In this document: positions 18,439 to 26,597 of the stretch, piece after piece
Layout: every line of letters begins with the position of its first letter
How positions within the stretch are numbered: the stretch's first letter is position 1
Source of the DNA: Streptomyces coryli
Lineage (GTDB): Bacteria > Actinomycetota > Actinomycetes > Streptomycetales > Streptomycetaceae
Reading direction: 5' to 3'
Assembly (NCBI RefSeq): GCF_011044975.1
Contig: NZ_JAAKZV010000060.1
Coordinates: 1 to 35,998 of the forward strand
Length of the DNA stretch: 35,998 bases
Program-made: the position numbers and the translations under genes
The notes under the pieces: model-generated
Seen by the model: only the letters and a program-made list of their open reading frames with translations
Database searches by the model: none
Told to the model about the DNA's origin: nothing

Positions 18439-19779
18439 CTACGCGTTCGGGCGGCCCATCCCGCGGTACGTCCAGCCGGCCGCGCGCCACTTCTCCGGGT
18501 CGAGGGCGTTGCGGCCGTCGACGATGGTGCGGCGGGCGGCCACCGCGCCGAGCTCCGCCGGGTCCAGCTCGCGGAACTCGCGCCACTCCGTCAGGTGCAG
18601 CACGATGTCCGTGCCGCGCACGGCGTCCAGTGCCGAATCGGCGTAGCCGAGCGTCGGGAAGAGCCGCCGCGCGTTCTCCATCCCCTTCGGGTCGTACACC
18701 GTGACCTGGCCGCCCTGCAGGTGGATCTGCCCGGCGACGTTCAGCGCGGGCGAGTCGCGGACGTCGTCCGAGTCCGGCTTGAAGGTGGCGCCGAGCACCG
18801 CGACCCGCTTGCCGAGGAAGGAGCCGCCGCAGGCCTCGCGGGCCAGCTCCACCGCGGCACCCCGCCGCCGCATGTTGATCGAGTCGATCTCGCGCAGGAA
18901 GGTCAGCGCCTGGTCGACGCCCAGCTCGCCGGCCCGCGCCATGTAGGCGCGGATGTCCTTCGGCAGGCAGCCGCCGCCGAAGCCGACCCCGGCGCGCAGG
19001 AACTTGTGGCCGATCCGCTCGTCATAGCCCAGCGACTCCGCGAGCTTCACGACGTCGCCGCCCGCGGCCTCGCAGATCTCCGCCATCGCGTTGATGAAGG
19101 AGATCTTCGTGGCCAGGAAGGCGTTCGCGGAGGTCTTCACCAGCTCGGCCGTCGGGAAGTCCGTCACCACGAAGGGCGTGCCCTCCTCGATCGGCGTCGC
19201 GTACACCTCCCGCAGCAGCTTCTCCGCGCGCTCGCTGCGCACGCCGACGACGAGCCGGTCCGGGTGCAGGGTGTCGTCGACGGCGAAGCCCTCGCGCAGG
19301 AACTCCGGGTTCCAGGCCAGCTCCGCCTCGTCGCCCGCGGGCGCCAGCTCGGCGATACGGGAGGCGAGCCGCTCGGCGGACCCCACCGGCACGGTGGACT
19401 TGCCGACCACCAGGCACGGCTTGCTGAGGTGCTTGGCGAGCGACTCCATGGCGCTGTCCACGTACGACATGTCGCAGGCGTACTCGCCGTGCTTCTGCGG
19501 CGTGTTCACGCACACGAAGTGCACGTCGCCGAAGTCCGCGACCTCGGCGAAGTCCATGGTGAAGCGCAGCCGCCCGGACGATCCCTCGAGCCCCGCCACA
19601 TGCTTGGTCAGCAGCTCGTCGAGGCCGGGCTCGTACATCGGGCCCCTGCCGGTCGACAGCTGCGCGATCTTCTCGGGTACGACGTCCAGCGCCAGCACCT
19701 CGAATCCCAGCTCCGCCATGGCGGCTGCGTGCGTGGCACCGAGGTAGCCGGTGCCGATCACAGTGATCTTGGGGGCCAT
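18439..19779 (-). CDS. UDP-glucose 6-dehydrogenase
   Basis: A 446-residue enzyme oxidising UDP-glucose to UDP-glucuronate with NAD+, providing an acidic sugar for surface glycopolymers. The Rossmann motif G-T-G-Y-L-G is at 9-14. The conserved K-S-T-V-P-V-G (127-133) and N-P-E-F-L-R-E-G (157-164) follow. The catalytic cysteine is C271 in F-G-G-G-C-L-P-K-D. The C-terminal UDP-binding domain contains F-K-P-D-S-D-D-x-R-D-S-P. The ATG at 19777-19779 begins the dinucleotide fold and GGAGGA lies 12 nt upstream; the frame continues to 20409 only as an antisense shadow of the LCP gene. It is divergent from an LCP gene and lies within the envelope-gene region. A GDP-mannose dehydrogenase is the main alternative; the motifs favour UDP-glucose. 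Confidence 0.93.
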   Translation of the reverse strand: MAPKITVIGTGYLGATHAAAMAELGFEVLALDVVPEKIAQLSTGRGPMYEPGLDELLTKHVAGLEGSSGRLRFTMDFAEVADFGDVHFVCVNTPQKHGEYACDMSYVDSAMESLAKHLSKPCLVVGKSTVPVGSAERLASRIAELAPAGDEAELAWNPEFLREGFAVDDTLHPDRLVVGVRSERAEKLLREVYATPIEEGTPFVVTDFPTAELVKTSANAFLATKISFINAMAEICEAAGGDVVKLAESLGYDERIGHKFLRAGVGFGGGCLPKDIRAYMARAGELGVDQALTFLREIDSINMRRRGAAVELAREACGGSFLGKRVAVLGATFKPDSDDVRDSPALNVAGQIHLQGGQVTVYDPKGMENARRLFPTLGYADSALDAVRGTDIVLHLTEWREFRELDPAELGAVAARRTIVDGRNALDPEKWRAAGWTYRGMGRPNA

Positions 19780-19869
19780 GGAAGCGGGTCCTCCGGTTCG
19801 CGGGGGCTGGGCCGCCCCCGAGCATAACCGCGTGACCGGGCAACCTTGAGCCACCCTGGGTTGTCTGAC

Positions 19870-20883
19870 GTGGATGTGAATGACAGCACCGGTGTCGAAA
19901 CCGAGCAGGCCCAGCCCGCCCATCAGGCCCAGACCTCCCGCCGCCGCCCCCGCGGCCGCCGCGTCCTCATGGGCGCCCTGGCCCTCCTGGCCGCGGGCGC
20001 CCTCCTGGCCGCCGGCGCGGCGTGGTGGGCGTACGAGCACTACACCGGCCGCGTCGACCGCATCCCCGGCGCCTTCCCTTCGCACGTACCGGAGAAGGAC
20101 CAGCCGGCGCCCGGCAAGGGCGGCGAGACCTATCTCCTCGTCGGCCTCGACGCCCGCTCCGACCTGCCCACCACCGGCAGCTCCGCGAAGGCCCCGCAGT
20201 GGAAGCCGGGCGCGCAGCGCAGCGACACGATGATGCTGGTCCACCTGCCGGAGGACCGCAGCGCCGCCTACGTCGTCTCGCTGCCCCGCGACAGCTGGGT
20301 CCCGGTCCCTGGGCACGGCGACGCGAAGCTGAACGCCGCCTTCTCCTGGGGCGGCCCGCCGCTGCTCATCGACACGGTGCAGCGGCTCACGGACGTACGC
20401 GTCGACCACCTGGCCGTCATCGACTGGAGCGGCTTCAAGCGCCTCACCGACGCCGTCGGCGGCGTCACGCTGGAGGGCCGGGAGATGAACGGCGAGCAGG
20501 CGCTGACGTACGTACGCGAACGCAAGAACCTGCCGCGCGGCGACCTCGACCGCACCCGGCGCCAGCAGTTCTTCCTCAAGGCCGTCGCCGCGAAGACGAT
20601 CTCACCCGCGAACCTCTCCAACCCGCTCAAGGCCAAGCGCCTCCTCGACGCGGTGACCTCCACGATCAGCGTCGACGACCGCCTCGCCGACTCCGACCTC
20701 CGCGACCTCATGTGGGACCTGCGCAACGTCCGCACCTCGGACATGACCTTCATGAACGCCCCGGTCGGCGGCCTCGACACGGTCAAGGGCCAGTCGGTGG
20801 TGCTCCTCGACAAGGACAAGGGCGACCGTCTGTGGGAGGCGATGCGCAACGACACGCTGGCGGAGCACCTCCGCAAGCCGTAA
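19870..20883 (+). CDS. LytR-CpsA-Psr (LCP) family protein with shortened active-site loop
   Basis: LCP proteins attach lipid-linked glycopolymers to peptidoglycan outside the membrane. This one (337 residues from GTG 19870) has a short Arg-rich cytoplasmic tail and one transmembrane helix near residues 33-53. The LCP domain has L-V-G-L-D-A-R, D-T-M-M-L-V-H, S-L-P-R-D-S-W, and the basic run V-R-E-R-K-x-x-x-R-G-D-L-D-R-T-R-R-Q-Q with the pyrophosphate-binding arginines. Unlike the other five LCPs here it lacks the C-x-x-P-I-x-D insertion between G-G-V and N-G-E-Q-A-L, and it has no cysteine and no LytR_C domain. A TTG at 19846 is an alternative start; neither has a clear ribosome site. It is divergent from the UDP-glucose dehydrogenase gene. 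Confidence 0.88.
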   Translation: MDVNDSTGVETEQAQPAHQAQTSRRRPRGRRVLMGALALLAAGALLAAGAAWWAYEHYTGRVDRIPGAFPSHVPEKDQPAPGKGGETYLLVGLDARSDLPTTGSSAKAPQWKPGAQRSDTMMLVHLPEDRSAAYVVSLPRDSWVPVPGHGDAKLNAAFSWGGPPLLIDTVQRLTDVRVDHLAVIDWSGFKRLTDAVGGVTLEGREMNGEQALTYVRERKNLPRGDLDRTRRQQFFLKAVAAKTISPANLSNPLKAKRLLDAVTSTISVDDRLADSDLRDLMWDLRNVRTSDMTFMNAPVGGLDTVKGQSVVLLDKDKGDRLWEAMRNDTLAEHLRKP

Positions 20884-21116
20884 CTGTCGGTAGCCGAGCG
20901 GGCGCAGGCGGTGACATTCATTGTTGACGGTTGTACTTAGTAGGCGGCCCAATGCATCGCCCGCCCCCCAGTTCTGGCTTTACGCATCACCCGTCACATG
21001 GGCAAGGTGGTGCGGCGACGAGGTCTGCACGCCGGCGTCCCGGGTGCGGCCGACCAGTGGAACCTCACGGTTGGTTCGCGAGAACCCCATGGACGACGAA
21101 AGGCAGGGCCTGTCCC
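20884..21116 (+). promoter_or_regulatory. Upstream region of the type III PKS gene
   Basis: No gene is seen in these 233 bp. TTGACG (20924-20929) is a good -35 candidate, but no clean -10 follows at 17-18 bp. TACTTAGTA (20934-20942) is a 9-bp palindrome that could bind a regulator. The PKS frame stays open back to 20931, but that part shows no family similarity. Confidence 0.3.
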
Positions 21117-22223
21117 GTGCCCGTGCTGTGCCGACCCGCTGTCTGGGTCCCCGAGAACATCCTCTCGATGGAAAAGACCCTCAGCCTCGCAGAGGAGTTA
21201 CACCCCAAGCACCCCAGGCTGCGCCTGGTGAAGCGCATGATCACCAACACCGGTGTGACCAAGCGGCACTTGATCCAGCCGGTGGACGTCACCCTCACCC
21301 ACCCCGGCTTCGAGGCCCGTAACAAGGTCTACGTCCGGGAGGCCAAACGCCATATCCCGGCGGCAGTCGAGCAGGCCCTTGCCTCGGCAGGCCTGGGCGT
21401 CCGCGACATCGACGCGATCGTCTTCGTCTCCTGCACCGGCTTCGCCATGCCACCGCTGACCAGCTGGCTGATCAACGAGCTCGGCTTCCGCAGCGCGACC
21501 CGGCAGATCCCCATCGCCCAGCTCGGCTGCGCCGCCGGCGGCACCGCGATCAACCGGGCGCACGACTTCTGCCGCGCCTACCCCGGCGCCCATGTGCTCA
21601 TCGTGGCCTGCGAGTTCTGCTCGCTGTGCTACCAGCCGGACGACTCCGACGTCGGCTCGCTGCTCTCCAACGGCCTGTTCGGCGACGCCATCGCCGCCGC
21701 CGTGGTGCGCGGCGACGACGGCGGGCACGGCATGCGGCTGGTCCGCAACGCCTCCCACCTGGTGCCGGATACGGAGGACTGGATCGCGTACGAGGTGAAG
21801 GCCACCGGCTTCCACTTCCGGCTGGACCGCCGGGTGCCCGGCACCATGTCCGTCCTCGCCCCCGCCCTGCACACGCTCGCGGGCGCCCACGACTGGGACG
21901 CCTCGGCGCTCGACTTCTACATCATCCATGCGGGCGGCCCGCGCATCCTCGACGACCTGTGCCACTACCTGTCCGTCGAGCCGCACGCCTTCCGCCATTC
22001 GCGGACCACCCTCACCGAGTACGGCAACATCGCCTCCGCCGTCGTCTTCGACGCGCTGCGGCGGCAGTTCGACGAGGGCCTCCCCGAAGGGGCGCGTGGG
22101 CTGCTCGCCGGCTTCGGGCCCGGGATCACCGCAGAAACGTCACTGGGCGTCTGGCGCGCCCCCACCGGCCCCCGCTCCGTGGTCCGGCAGACCGGCGGCG
22201 CGGTCCCCACCGCCCAGCACTGA
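21117..22223 (+). CDS. rppA: Type III polyketide synthase, 1,3,6,8-tetrahydroxynaphthalene synthase (RppA-like)
   Basis: A 368-residue thiolase-fold enzyme. The catalytic triad is C138 (I-A-Q-L-G-C-A-A-G-G), H271 (H-A-G-G-P-R) and N304 (E-Y-G-N-I-A-S). Long stretches match the S. griseus RppA sequence as I remember it, including C-E-F-C-S-L-C-Y-Q-P, G-S-L-L-S-N-G-L-F-G-D-A and S-H-L-V-P-D-T-E-D-W-I. C106 in S-C-T-G-F also fits. RppA condenses five malonyl-CoA units to tetrahydroxynaphthalene, which oxidises to flaviolin and melanin. The GTG at 21117 gives the family's normal N-terminus (P-V-L-C-R-P-A). The next gene, 48 bp on, encodes a reductase/NTF2 fusion and is probably cotranscribed. The usual rppB P450 partner is not adjacent. 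Other type III PKS products cannot be excluded without assay. Confidence 0.93.
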   Translation: MPVLCRPAVWVPENILSMEKTLSLAEELHPKHPRLRLVKRMITNTGVTKRHLIQPVDVTLTHPGFEARNKVYVREAKRHIPAAVEQALASAGLGVRDIDAIVFVSCTGFAMPPLTSWLINELGFRSATRQIPIAQLGCAAGGTAINRAHDFCRAYPGAHVLIVACEFCSLCYQPDDSDVGSLLSNGLFGDAIAAAVVRGDDGGHGMRLVRNASHLVPDTEDWIAYEVKATGFHFRLDRRVPGTMSVLAPALHTLAGAHDWDASALDFYIIHAGGPRILDDLCHYLSVEPHAFRHSRTTLTEYGNIASAVVFDALRRQFDEGLPEGARGLLAGFGPGITAETSLGVWRAPTGPRSVVRQTGGAVPTAQH

Positions 22224-22271
22224 CCACCCCCCTCCCGTACGGACCGTCCAGCACGAAAGCGAGGCTGTGCC

Positions 22272-23615
22272 ATGCCCGAAACCGCCACGTCCCCTTCCAC
22301 CTTCCGCCTCGGCGGCGAGACCCCCGTCAACCGGCTCGGCTACGGAGCCATGCACCTCACAGGACCGGGCATGTGGGGTCCGCCGGAGGACCCGGACAGC
22401 GCGGTCCGGATCCTCCGCCGCGCCGTGCACGACCTCGGCGTGAACTTCCTCGACACCGCTGATTCGTACGGCCCCGGCCACAACGAGGAGATCATCCGCA
22501 AGGCCCTGCACCCGTACCCCGACGACCTGGTGATCTCCACCAAGGGCGGCATGCTGCGTACGGGCCCGCGGGACTGGACGCACGAGGAGGGCCGGGACCC
22601 GTACATCATGGCGCTCGGGCGGCCCGAATACCTGCGGCAGCAGGTCGAGGTGAGCCTGCTGCGGCTGGGAGCCGAATCGATCGGGCTCTACCAGCTGCAC
22701 CGCATCGACGACCGGGTGCCGCTGGCCGACCAGCTGGGTGTGCTGGCCGAGCTGAAGGCCGAGGGCAAGATCCGGCACATCGGCCTCTCCGGCCAGCCGG
22801 ATGTGCCGGTGGCGACGATCGAGGCGGCCCGGCAGATCACCGACATCGCCGCCGTGGAGGCGCTGTTCAACATCGCGGACCAGGCGAGCACGCCGGTGCT
22901 GGAGTACTGCGAGGACAACGGCATCGCCTTCATCCCGTGGTTCCCGCTCGGCCACGGCGGCCTCGTCGGCCCCGCCGGGGTGCTGACCAAGGCGGCCGAG
23001 GCATACGGCACCAGCGGCGCCCGGCTCGGCCTGGCCTGGCTGCTGCAGCGCTCGCCGAACATCCTCGCCATCCCGGGCACCACGAAGCTGCCGCACCTGG
23101 AGGACAACATGAAGGCGGCCGGCGTCGTGCTGACCGGCGGCCAGTGGCGGGACGTCGAGGCCCAGTGCGCTCAGGCCGAGGCCTGGCGCCCGGAACCGCG
23201 GCAGACGAGCCCCGCGGCGAGCAGCGAGCACCCGAACTGCGCCACGATCCGCGCCGTGTACCGGGACCTCACCCGGATCGCGGAGTACGCGGCCGACGAC
23301 GTCGTCTATCACGTCGCCGCCCGCGACACCCCCGAGGGCGCACCCGACCTGCACGGCAAGCACGCCGTCACCGCGGTTGAGCGCTGGCTGGCGGACAAGA
23401 CGGGCGGCACGCTGCGCGCGGAGGTGGAGTCGGTGGTGGCCAACGACCACTGGGGCACGATCATCGGCACCTTCCACTTCACGATCCGCGGCGAGGAGCA
23501 CGCGGAGCGGTTCTGCGGCCTGTGGAAGTTCCGCGACGGCCTGATCACGCACCACTGGCAGAACGCCTACGACCCGGTCGCCCTCGGCCGACTGCTCGAC
23601 CCGCCGGCCCAGTAG
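22272..23615 (+). CDS. Aldo/keto reductase fused to an NTF2/SnoaL-like domain
   Basis: A 447-residue fusion. Residues 18-300 form an aldo/keto reductase barrel with the full catalytic tetrad D61, Y66, K91 and H143 (F-L-D-T-A-D-S-Y-G; I-S-T-K-G-G; Y-Q-L-H-R-I-D). The NADPH-site segment near 264-280 is I-L-A-I-P-G-T-T. Residues 319-441 resemble an NTF2/SnoaL-like small-molecule fold, with R-D-L, G-K-H-A-V, H-W-G-T-I-I-G-T-F-H-F and a final W-K-F-R-D-G-L-I-T-H-H-W-Q-N-A-Y-D-P. The NTF2 superfamily includes scytalone dehydratase and polyketide cyclases. The gene follows the RppA-like PKS by 48 bp with no terminator between, so it likely acts on its naphthol product or a derived quinone. The AKR assignment is firm, the second domain is good by pattern, and the substrate is inference. 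Confidence 0.88.
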   Translation: MPETATSPSTFRLGGETPVNRLGYGAMHLTGPGMWGPPEDPDSAVRILRRAVHDLGVNFLDTADSYGPGHNEEIIRKALHPYPDDLVISTKGGMLRTGPRDWTHEEGRDPYIMALGRPEYLRQQVEVSLLRLGAESIGLYQLHRIDDRVPLADQLGVLAELKAEGKIRHIGLSGQPDVPVATIEAARQITDIAAVEALFNIADQASTPVLEYCEDNGIAFIPWFPLGHGGLVGPAGVLTKAAEAYGTSGARLGLAWLLQRSPNILAIPGTTKLPHLEDNMKAAGVVLTGGQWRDVEAQCAQAEAWRPEPRQTSPAASSEHPNCATIRAVYRDLTRIAEYAADDVVYHVAARDTPEGAPDLHGKHAVTAVERWLADKTGGTLRAEVESVVANDHWGTIIGTFHFTIRGEEHAERFCGLWKFRDGLITHHWQNAYDPVALGRLLDPPAQ

Positions 23616-23763
23616 CCGCCGCCGCGCGGCCGGCGGTGCAGTGGACTTTGGTCCCGCCCGGTCGGGACCATTGCCCGCGCTTGTGCATATGTGCCCCTTA
23701 TACGTTGAAGCGGTCCACCCGGGACAACGCCTCAACTCCCAACCGAAAGGGGCCCGCTCACCC

Positions 23764-25311
23764 ATGGGTAAGCGACGCGCGCCCAAGCGCACTGCCGGCC
23801 GCCGGATCATGACCACCGCCGCTGCGACCACCATCATGGGTGGCTCGGTCATCCTGTCGAGCACAGCCGCCATCGCGGCGGACAACCCGGAGCCGACGGC
23901 GAGCCAGGAGACGGCGGCGACGCTGCCGGACACGCCGCGGACGTATGAGGCGCTGCAGGCCGTGGTGGATGCGGCGGTCAAGGACGGGCCCCACGCCCGG
24001 ATGACCCACCACGTCAGCCAGGCGAAGCAGGCGGCCGGCGCCGGGGACACGGAGAAGGCGCACCAGGAGCTCGCGAGCCTTGCCACGCTCGCCGGCAATA
24101 CGCCGATGGACGCCGGCTACCGCCAGGTGATCATCGCCGGTGCCAAGCAGCTGCAGACCCAGCTGCCCCCGGTCGAGCTGCCGAAGCCGGTCCCGGACAC
24201 CCCGAAGACGTACGAGGAGCTGCGGGCCGCGCTGGACAAGGCACTTGAGCTCCAGCACGTATCGCATGGCGATCACGGCCGGATGGCGTCGCAGCTGAGC
24301 CGGGCGCAGAAGGCCGCCGACGCAGGCGACCCGGGCAAGGCGTACGAGGAGCTCAAGAGCCTTGGCGAGCATGCCGCCCGCGCGGTCCACGACGAGACGT
24401 ACCGCACGCTCATCGTGGACGGCGCCAAGAACCTGCGGGAGCAGCTGCCGCCGGTCGAGCTGCCGGAGCCGATAAGGACCCCGCGCAGCTACCAGGACAT
24501 GCGCGACCTGCTGAACAAGGCGCACGGCAAGGGGCACTTGGACAAGACCGAGCTCGGCCGGATGACCTACCGGGTCACCCAGGCGGAGACGGCCGAGAAG
24601 GCCGGGGACAAGGACACGGCGTACGAGCGGCTGCAGGCCGTCATCAAGACCGCCGGTGTGGTGACGGACGAGGCCTACCGCCAGTCGCTCGTGGACGGTG
24701 CCAAGTACCTGCAGGAGCGGCTGAACCTGGAGGAACTGCCGCAGCCGATCATGACGCCGCACAGCTACAAGCAGCTGCTGGCCGTCCTGGGCGAGGCGAA
24801 GGAGAAGGGCCACCTCTCCGACGGCGACCACCAGCACCTGGCGAAGCTCGTCCGCGAGGCGCGTAAGGCCAAGGTCGGCGGCGACCCGGAGAAGGCGTTC
24901 GACAAGCTCGAGAGCGTGATCAAGGACGCCACGAAGGTGACGGACGCGGCGTACCGCCAGGCCACCGTCGACGGCGCCAAGTACCTGCAGAGCAAGCTGC
25001 CGGAGACCGACCCGGGCACGGACCCCGGCACCGACCCGGGCCACGGTGGCGACCACGGCAACGGCGGCGACCACGGCAACGACGCCGGCTCCGGTTCGAA
25101 GCCCGGCGCGAACAACGGCAACGGAACCGGCAACGGCAACGGAACCGGCACCTCCATCCAGACCACCGCCACCAAGCCCACCACCGGCGACCTCGCCCAC
25201 ACCGGCACCGACGGCACCGCCGCCCTCATCGGCGGCGCCGCCACCCTCACCGCCCTCGGCGCGGCCGCCGCAGCGTACGCCGCCCGCCGCCGCGTACGCC
25301 TGCCGCAGTAA
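23764..25311 (+). CDS. LAxTG sortase-anchored protein with four tandem helical repeats
   Basis: A 515-residue surface protein. A long basic signal peptide (1-39) precedes four tandem modules of about 82 residues at 57-135, 146-228, 239-320 and 331-412, spaced 89-93 apart. Each has a T-P-x-S/T-Y-x-x-L opening, a central A-x-x-A-G-D-x-x-K-A-Y-x-x-L helix, and the closing A-Y-R-Q-x-x-V-D-G-A-K-Y-L-Q-x-x-L. The central motif recalls FIMAH-type helical domains, but I do not claim that family. A DPGTDPGTDPG and Gly/Asn/Asp linker (415-470) leads to LAHTG (477-481), a hydrophobic helix and ARRR. The ATG at 23764 follows an AAAGGGG site. The frame reaches back to 23641 without a signal-peptide-like start. 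Function unknown; a cell-wall stalk or adhesin is plausible. Confidence 0.88.
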   Translation: MGKRRAPKRTAGRRIMTTAAATTIMGGSVILSSTAAIAADNPEPTASQETAATLPDTPRTYEALQAVVDAAVKDGPHARMTHHVSQAKQAAGAGDTEKAHQELASLATLAGNTPMDAGYRQVIIAGAKQLQTQLPPVELPKPVPDTPKTYEELRAALDKALELQHVSHGDHGRMASQLSRAQKAADAGDPGKAYEELKSLGEHAARAVHDETYRTLIVDGAKNLREQLPPVELPEPIRTPRSYQDMRDLLNKAHGKGHLDKTELGRMTYRVTQAETAEKAGDKDTAYERLQAVIKTAGVVTDEAYRQSLVDGAKYLQERLNLEELPQPIMTPHSYKQLLAVLGEAKEKGHLSDGDHQHLAKLVREARKAKVGGDPEKAFDKLESVIKDATKVTDAAYRQATVDGAKYLQSKLPETDPGTDPGTDPGHGGDHGNGGDHGNDAGSGSKPGANNGNGTGNGNGTGTSIQTTATKPTTGDLAHTGTDGTAALIGGAATLTALGAAAAAYAARRRVRLPQ

Positions 25312-25322
25312 GCGGTAGCCCG

Positions 25323-25377
25323 CCCGGGCACGGGCCTACGCGGCGTGCGCAACGTCACGTAGGCCCGCTGTCCCGGG
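25323..25377 (+). terminator. Extended hairpin after the repeat-protein gene
   Basis: CGGGCCTACG (25331-25340) pairs with CGTAGGCCCG (25358-25367), and the flanking CCCGGG (25323-25328) with CCCGGG (25372-25377) extends it. There is no U-tract. Confidence 0.65.
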
Positions 25378-25395
25378 GCGCTCTACCATCGTTGC

Positions 25396-25415
25396 GTTAC
25401 TTAACGGTAGTTAGC
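25396..25415. promoter_or_regulatory. AT-rich imperfect palindrome before the acyl-CoA dehydrogenase gene
   Basis: GTTACTTAACGGTAGTTAGC is partly symmetric around its centre (about 12 of 20 positions) and is the only AT-rich patch in the region, 25 bp before the start codon. It looks like a TetR-type operator, as often found before fatty-acid degradation genes. Confidence 0.4.
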
Positions 25416-25439
25416 AGGCAGCGTGGAGTGGAGAGAGCC

Positions 25440-26597
25440 TTGGCAGGACAGCCCGAATTCGACCTGTACCGGCCGGCCGAGGAGCACGACATGCTCCGGG
25501 ACGCCGTGCGCTCGCTCGCCGAGGCGAAGATCGCCCCGTTCGCGGCCGAGGTCGACGAGGAGGCCCGCTTCCCGCGGGAGGCGCTGGCTGCCCTCGTAGC
25601 GAATGACCTGCACGCCGTGCACGTACCCGAGACGTACGGCGGCAGCGGCGCCGACGCGCTCGCCACCGTCATCGTGATCGAGGAGGTGGCCCGCGTCTGC
25701 GGCTCCTCCTCGCTGATCCCGGCCGTCAACAAGCTGGGCTCGCTGCCGGTCATCCTCTCCGGCTCCGAGGAGCTGAAGAAGCAGTACCTGAGCCCGCTGG
25801 CCAAGGGCGACGGAATGTTCTCGTACTGCCTCAGCGAGCCGGACGCCGGCTCGGACGCGGCGGGCATGAAGACCCGCGCGGTGCGCGACGGCGACCACTA
25901 CATCCTCAACGGCGTGAAGCGCTGGATCACCAACGCCGGTGAGTCCGAGTACTACACGGTGATGGCCGTCACCGACCCGGAGAAGCGCAGCAAGGGCATC
26001 TCCGCCTTCGTCGTCGAGAAGAGCGACGAGGGCGTCTCCTTCGGCGCCCCGGAGAAGAAGCTCGGCATCAAGGGCTCGCCGACCCGCGAGGTCTACCTCG
26101 ACAACGTCCGTATCCCCGCGGACCGGATGATCGGCGCCGAGGGCACCGGCTTCGCCACGGCGATGAAGACCCTCGACCACACCCGCATCACCATCGCCGC
26201 CCAGGCGCTGGGCATCGCCCAGGGCGCGCTCGACTACGCCAAGGGCTATGTCAAGGAGCGCAAGCAGTTCGGCAAGCCGATCGCCGACTTCCAGGGCATC
26301 CAGTTCATGCTCGCCGACATGGCGATGAAGGTCTCCGCCGCCCGCGCCCTGACCTACCAGGCCGCCGCCGCCTCCGAGCGGGTCGACGCCGACCTGACGT
26401 ACCTGGGCGCGGCCGCGAAGTGCTTCGCCTCGGACATCGCCATGGAGGTCACCACGGACGCGGTCCAGCTCCTCGGCGGCTACGGCTACACCCGCGACTA
26501 CCCGGTGGAGCGGATGATGCGGGACGCCAAGATCACCCAGATCTACGAGGGCACCAACCAGGTCCAGCGCATCGTGATGGCGCGCAACCTGCCGTAA
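25440..26597 (+). CDS. Acyl-CoA dehydrogenase
   Basis: A 385-residue FAD-dependent acyl-CoA dehydrogenase that introduces the alpha-beta double bond in beta-oxidation or amino-acid catabolism. The N-terminal helical domain is followed by the FAD/substrate segment Y-C-L-S-E-P-D-A-G-S-D-A (129-140). R-K-Q-F-G-K-P (274-280, E-R-K-Q-F-G-K-P) and the C-terminal G-G-Y-G-Y-T-R-D-Y-P-V-E-R-M-M-R-D-A-K (346-364) follow. The catalytic base is E370 in Q-I-Y-E-G-T-N-Q. Length and motifs match short-chain acyl-CoA dehydrogenases. The TTG at 25440 was chosen because GGAGAGAG lies just upstream and the protein then starts like its relatives. A strong terminator follows. From memory it corresponds to S. coelicolor SCO3051. 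Confidence 0.95.
   Translation: MAGQPEFDLYRPAEEHDMLRDAVRSLAEAKIAPFAAEVDEEARFPREALAALVANDLHAVHVPETYGGSGADALATVIVIEEVARVCGSSSLIPAVNKLGSLPVILSGSEELKKQYLSPLAKGDGMFSYCLSEPDAGSDAAGMKTRAVRDGDHYILNGVKRWITNAGESEYYTVMAVTDPEKRSKGISAFVVEKSDEGVSFGAPEKKLGIKGSPTREVYLDNVRIPADRMIGAEGTGFATAMKTLDHTRITIAAQALGIAQGALDYAKGYVKERKQFGKPIADFQGIQFMLADMAMKVSAARALTYQAAAASERVDADLTYLGAAAKCFASDIAMEVTTDAVQLLGGYGYTRDYPVERMMRDAKITQIYEGTNQVQRIVMARNLP

Follow-up and report, generated by a model that had tools for sequence, protein, structure and literature searches.

The 35,998-nucleotide stretch of Streptomyces coryli DNA considered here (contig NZ_JAAKZV010000060.1, positions 1 to 35,998; the whole stretch is called the window) carries two neighbouring genes on its forward strand, an rppA-like gene for a type III polyketide synthase (PKS) and a gene that joins an aldo/keto reductase (AKR) to an NTF2-like domain. 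The cassette formed by rppA, AKR and NTF2 is a real and conserved module. A module of this kind is known from a myxobacterium. What differs here is the host group, which is new, and in the window also the fusion of AKR and NTF2 and a changed NTF2 motif.

The synthase gene and the fused reductase gene

The rppA gene (21117..22223, plus strand) starts with GTG and encodes 368 amino acids. The best PDB match of its product is 1u0m, a "putative polyketide synthase" (E 5.7e-167, residues 3-356), which we take to be the tetrahydroxynaphthalene (THN) synthase of S. coelicolor. The catalytic residues C138, H271 and N304 are present and are constant across the 15 cassette RppAs compared. The protein thus has what defines an RppA, or THN synthase: type III PKS architecture, the Cys-His-Asn triad and a close match to 1u0m.

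After a gap of 48 bases follows the fused gene (22272..23615, plus strand), a single open frame of 447 amino acids with an ATG start. Residues 21-296 (22332..23159, plus strand) form the reductase domain (Pfam Aldo_ket_red, PF00248, E 3.3e-57), which carries D61, Y66, K91 and H143, presumably the Asp-Tyr-Lys-His catalytic tetrad of the AKR superfamily. Residues 331-428 (23262..23555, plus strand) match the SnoaL-like NTF2 family SnoaL_2 (E 4.7e-10), with a score of 40.4 bits against a cut-off of 27. An earlier note on this DNA had described an RppA-like type III PKS with an intact triad, next to a gene joining a catalytically complete AKR to an NTF2-like domain; the 1u0m match, the residue checks, the single open frame and the Pfam matches bear out both descriptions.

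Could the two domains belong to separate genes after all? No stop interrupts the fusion frame, and the sole in-frame start codon within 23141-23290 is a GTG at 23256, which just precedes the invariant Tyr19 of the NTF2 domain (domain numbering). Starting there would remove conserved NTF2 residues, so that a separate NTF2 gene would lack a good start. The fusion junction may nevertheless be an assembly error. Among the 16 loci that have both domains, only the window has a fused copy, whereas the domains are encoded by separate genes in all 15 others. In 13 of these (L066, L067, L069-L072, L080-L086) AKR precedes NTF2 and a stop closes the AKR frame, while in L001 and L002 NTF2 comes before AKR. 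An apparent RppA-AKR fusion in L082 (a 695-aa stretch) was rejected, as tblastn had read through a stop codon that is visible in the translation.

The NTF2 domain was also placed by family, using an alignment of 23 rows (the window and 22 relatives; the fetched copy L076 was left out). SnoaL_2 is matched by all 23 members and SnoaL by 22; the 12 families listed for them at E up to 1 do not include Scytalone_dh. Run as a profile against the PDB, the alignment matches 1tuh at E 3e-7 and IdmH, a putative polyketide cyclase, at E 8.9e-6, and no scytalone dehydratase is named among its 11 matches there at E up to 1. By sequence, therefore, the second domain is of the NTF2 type and SnoaL-like. The likeness to scytalone dehydratase drawn earlier stands as far as the NTF2 type is concerned and fails at the level of family; the name fits only as a likeness of the proposed function. 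The residues invariant over the 23 rows, window included, comprise among others Y19, H36, C104, W107, H117, W118 and N120.

Linkage of rppA, reductase and NTF2 genes in actinobacteria

Is the pairing of rppA with these two domains more than an accident of position? With the 130-residue NTF2 part of the fusion as the query, genome samples of three kinds were searched. Matches were found in 8 of 394 genomes of the class sample (E up to 1e-7; strong in one, G002), in 14 of 390 genomes (16 places) of the Pseudonocardiaceae, the family of the Amycolatopsis genome, and in 6 of 392 Streptomyces genomes (7 places), the cut-off in the latter two samples being E up to 1e-13. The surroundings were fetched for all 23 NTF2 places, which do not include the window. 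At 14 of them, in 12 genomes, rppA, AKR and NTF2 stand together, and 11 of the 14 show the order rppA-AKR-NTF2 on one strand (other orders occur in L071, L001 and L002). If the starts are set as they were here, a 4-nt overlap of AKR with rppA occurs in L067, L081, L085 and L086, and one of NTF2 with AKR in L069, L081, L083, L084 and L085. A crude clustering of open reading frames finds no family beyond the three genes that recurs in more than three loci, which leaves rppA, AKR and NTF2 as the shared unit. A search for exact short patterns in genome contigs, uninformative on absence elsewhere, gave two loci, both from Amycolatopsis, in which separate AKR and NTF2 genes cluster with rppA and a cytochrome P450 (P450) gene. 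In one locus of A. pretoriensis a glycosyltransferase-like gene (L002:6515-7936, by eye) lies between rppA and NTF2, and the product there may be glycosylated.

The reductases of these loci form a dedicated clade, as judged from their sequences. In a maximum-likelihood tree a branch supported at 100/99 separates the 16 cassette AKRs, including those of the window and of L080, from 31 other actinobacterial AKRs. Of these 31, 29 are the top matches in the class sample, and the other two come from Amycolatopsis genomes. This bears on the notion that an ordinary AKR-NTF2 protein, unrelated to rppA, adjoins it by chance. Related AKRs are indeed widespread, with matches at E up to 1e-60 in 137 of the 394 genomes of the class sample, and the segment that holds the two genes is absent at four other Streptomyces loci, so these neighbours came by insertion. 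However, at 14 of the 23 NTF2 places both rppA and an AKR from this single clade are linked to NTF2, and these places come from two groups of actinobacteria. The survey contradicts chance, and such an explanation has a vanishingly small probability; the pairing of rppA with AKR and NTF2 is not fortuitous.

The rppA genes themselves were compared in the Streptomyces sample, which holds 115 RppA places in 102 of 179 genomes. One cassette locus (L087) was set beside the 29 next best-scoring of the 115 places. A P450 match lies within about 1.5 kb of rppA at 27 of these 29 loci, some of which end at contig ends, and an AKR or NTF2 match at none; L087 shows matches to AKR and NTF2 but none to P450. 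The window likewise departs from the canonical rppA-P450 arrangement: three P450 queries found no match in its 36 kb, and no P450 adjoins rppA. Streptomyces rppA-P450 clusters are pigment clusters, and their RppAs are homologous to that of the window (58-71% identity at the listed non-cassette places; one partial match, 75%), but the company is reversed, with P450 and neither AKR nor NTF2 in the clusters and the opposite in the window. The neighbourhood survey and the P450 comparison thus agree with what had been anticipated for this locus, namely a non-random co-occurrence of the three genes and an AKR-NTF2 pair that stands where a P450 usually adjoins rppA.

On the RppA tree the nearest rows to the window are cassette RppAs (L084, 82% identity). 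Of the 12 genomes with a cassette, 9 yield cassette RppAs only (E up to 1e-60), and additional ones occur in G976, G1050 and G001. The last of these, Amycolatopsis antarctica, has on one contig both the cassette rppA and, about 14 kb away, a second RppA (G001:C64:153344-154393; 57% identical to that of the window).

A proposed naphthol pathway and its alternatives

Sequence and analogy make it likely that the three genes form a compact cassette for a dihydroxynaphthalene (DHN)-type naphthol pathway. RppA, by family membership and intact catalytic residues, would condense malonyl-CoA to 1,3,6,8-tetrahydroxynaphthalene (T4HN). By analogy with enzymes of the myxobacterium Sorangium, the AKR domain would use NADPH to reduce the keto tautomer of T4HN to a scytalone-type tetralone, which the NTF2 domain would dehydrate to 1,3,8-trihydroxynaphthalene (T3HN). 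A second round might lead to 1,8-dihydroxynaphthalene, oxidising to pigment. Because AKR and NTF2 are fused in one protein in the window, they may well catalyse consecutive steps, and the single polypeptide, a possible natural channelling enzyme, would pass the tetralone between its active sites. The gene set thus probably makes melanin building blocks by the reduce-then-dehydrate chemistry of fungi, and the finding suggests DHN-type pigments in a group whose examined rppA loci mostly have an adjoining P450.

How close does this come to known systems? The fungal DHN-melanin pathway has the same proposed order of reactions and an NTF2-type dehydratase. It differs in its naphthol reductase, a short-chain dehydrogenase/reductase (SDR) where the window has Aldo_ket_red, and in its dehydratase, which belongs to the scytalone dehydratase family where the domain of the window is SnoaL-like. 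Moreover, the fungal pathway uses a type I PKS and the window has a type III PKS. In plants, chalcone reductase is an AKR that works with the type III PKS chalcone synthase to remove a hydroxyl; it belongs to a different AKR family, has no NTF2 partner and acts before aromatisation. The nearest precedent is bacterial. Sone and co-workers are said to have described in 2018 an operon of Sorangium cellulosum in which the type III PKS SoceCHS1, the AKR BdsA and the SnoaL-like dehydratase BdsB lead to 1,8-DHN. By that account the operon has the same gene content as the cassette, in that synthase (type III PKS), reductase (AKR) and SnoaL-like NTF2 protein are encoded together. The likeness is one of gene content: the hosts of the cassette are actinobacterial, reductase and dehydratase are fused in the window, and the NTF2 domain of the window differs at two glutamates from its actinobacterial relatives.

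The earlier note knew of no description of this pair; its proposed chemistry, at least, has been described. According to a passage of a published article, an AKR identified by Funa and co-workers in S. cellulosum reduces T4HN and T3HN, and such an enzyme is lacking in S. coelicolor (PMC7154522). A literature search over titles and the beginnings of abstracts found, among the matches listed, no description of an rppA-AKR-NTF2 set in actinobacteria. The novelty lies in the finding of the cassette in actinobacteria, in the fused gene, in the insertion of the set between two genes that are direct neighbours at other loci, and in a copy with prophage-like surroundings.

The chief rival to the proposed order of events is reduction before aromatisation, on the model of plant chalcone reductase and chalcone synthase. 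Here the AKR would act on the linear or once-cyclised pentaketide from RppA and the NTF2 domain would serve as cyclase or aromatase, giving a deoxygenated naphthol or other reduced pentaketide with no T4HN intermediate. The SnoaL-type family matches and the match to the putative polyketide cyclase IdmH would suit such a role. Three bacterial type II ketoreductases that were tested reduced tetralones and left polyhydroxynaphthalenes and flaviolin unreduced, and enzymes of this type were concluded to act on a cyclised, not yet aromatic intermediate; fungi, in contrast, reduce fully aromatic naphthols (PMC7154522). The Sorangium AKR is, however, named in the same article as an exception (PMC7154522), and the AKR clade that is dedicated to the cassette and linked with rppA, in Streptomyces as well as Pseudonocardiaceae, makes this exception testable in laboratory actinomycetes. 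Early reduction faces a further difficulty: RppA carries out the cyclisation of the chain within its own active site, which would leave little free intermediate. We regard early reduction as unlikely.

A different substrate for the AKR domain would be the quinone flaviolin, the oxidation product, instead of the naphthol. Fungal T4HNR or related enzymes also accept hydroxynaphthoquinones, flaviolin among them (PMC7154522), but a dehydratase partner is less well explained with this substrate, and little probability attaches to it.

Several findings weigh against a reduce-then-dehydrate cassette. Some concern the linkage. At 8 of the 23 NTF2 places (L068, L073-L079) the fetched stretch contains neither AKR nor rppA; L073 is only a 5.1-kb contig. 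Seven of the eight match more weakly, with E about 1e-23 to 1e-19, as does the cassette locus L086 (1.8e-18), but L068 is a strong match (1.6e-32), and its genome yields no RppA at E up to 1e-60. On the 8.2-kb contig L080 the order is AKR-NTF2-P450; the assembly is fragmented, and its rppA lies on a different contig. Of the 16 loci in the cassette set, 4 have a P450 match (L001, L002, L072, L080), and the RppA tree separates 15 cassette from 29 other rows with weak support (52/55).

The main result against a plain reading of the fusion lies in its NTF2 domain, where a changed motif is combined with a long branch. The window has HHWQN in place of the EHWEN found in all 22 aligned relatives (E116H, E119Q), and its end branch measures 0.8, the median being 0.27. 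The activity of the fused domain may, to judge by these changes, be altered or lost. The AKR would then still work, and the NTF2 domain would no longer dehydrate, or would take another substrate, so that a tetralone or a new compound results. This outcome accounts for the change at two otherwise constant positions and for the long branch. Against it, the residues invariant over the 23 rows are retained and the frame is intact, and the NTF2 domain of L086, with a still longer end branch (1.27), keeps EHWEN; we consider such an altered end point quite improbable.

Two of the NTF2 places without rppA, L073 and L075, belong to a sister group of the NTF2 domain that lies in an operon-like run. The frame before NTF2 in L073 is SDR-like and the one after it amidohydrolase-like; L075 has the same following frame (all by eye). 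This setting is perhaps another reductase-dehydratase pairing in a catabolic context.

Genomic setting and apparent mobility

In the window (G+C about 65-74% in 2-kb steps) the two genes lie within a segment of about 5.6 kb (19846-25391) between a UDP-glucose dehydrogenase (UGDH) gene (18439-19773) and an acyl-CoA dehydrogenase gene (25392-26597). The segment comprises an LCP-family gene, rppA and the fused gene, which is immediately followed by a gene for a repetitive protein (23641-25311) with a FIMAH domain match and, by eye, a C-terminal LAHTG-type sorting signal. Of 44 large genomes searched, 12 contain homologues of the acyl-CoA dehydrogenase with 89-93% identity, at 13 places in all; these 12 were taken as Streptomyces, the genus label being inferred. 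At four loci chosen from them the UGDH and acyl-CoA dehydrogenase genes adjoin, with 131-248 bases between the matches, unlike in the window, where the segment separates them.

One of the two cassettes of genome G1050 is found in a different kind of surrounding. This complete rppA-AKR-NTF2 cassette (L086:9823-12177) sits in a prophage-like region, between portal and head-maturation genes on one side and neck and tape-measure genes on the other, as assigned with PHROGs. It is possible that L086 represents pigment genes carried by a temperate phage. Because of this setting and of the insertion between the UGDH and acyl-CoA dehydrogenase genes in the window, the rppA-AKR-NTF2 cassette looks mobile. 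A fuller picture, which we put forward tentatively and hold to be doubtful, would be that of a bifunctional naphthol reductase-dehydratase in a mobile, also prophage-borne cassette, whose altered NTF2 motif may make the pathway stop at, or divert to, a naphthol or tetralone different from those of the Sorangium and fungal enzymes.

Searches of viral and plasmid sequences returned few relatives. The RppA and NTF2 queries found none in viral contigs, where the AKR search gave one AKR at 51% (L117), and the NTF2 query had no match in plasmids. Among phage records, 46 match the fusion, none over more than 80% of its length, and the five listed cover the AKR part only. Three phage records match RppA, one weakly and two from Streptomyces phage ZL12 (32%); in the latter, GQ919031.1:79950-81002 is annotated as a type III polyketide synthase and is 32% identical to the RppA of the window.

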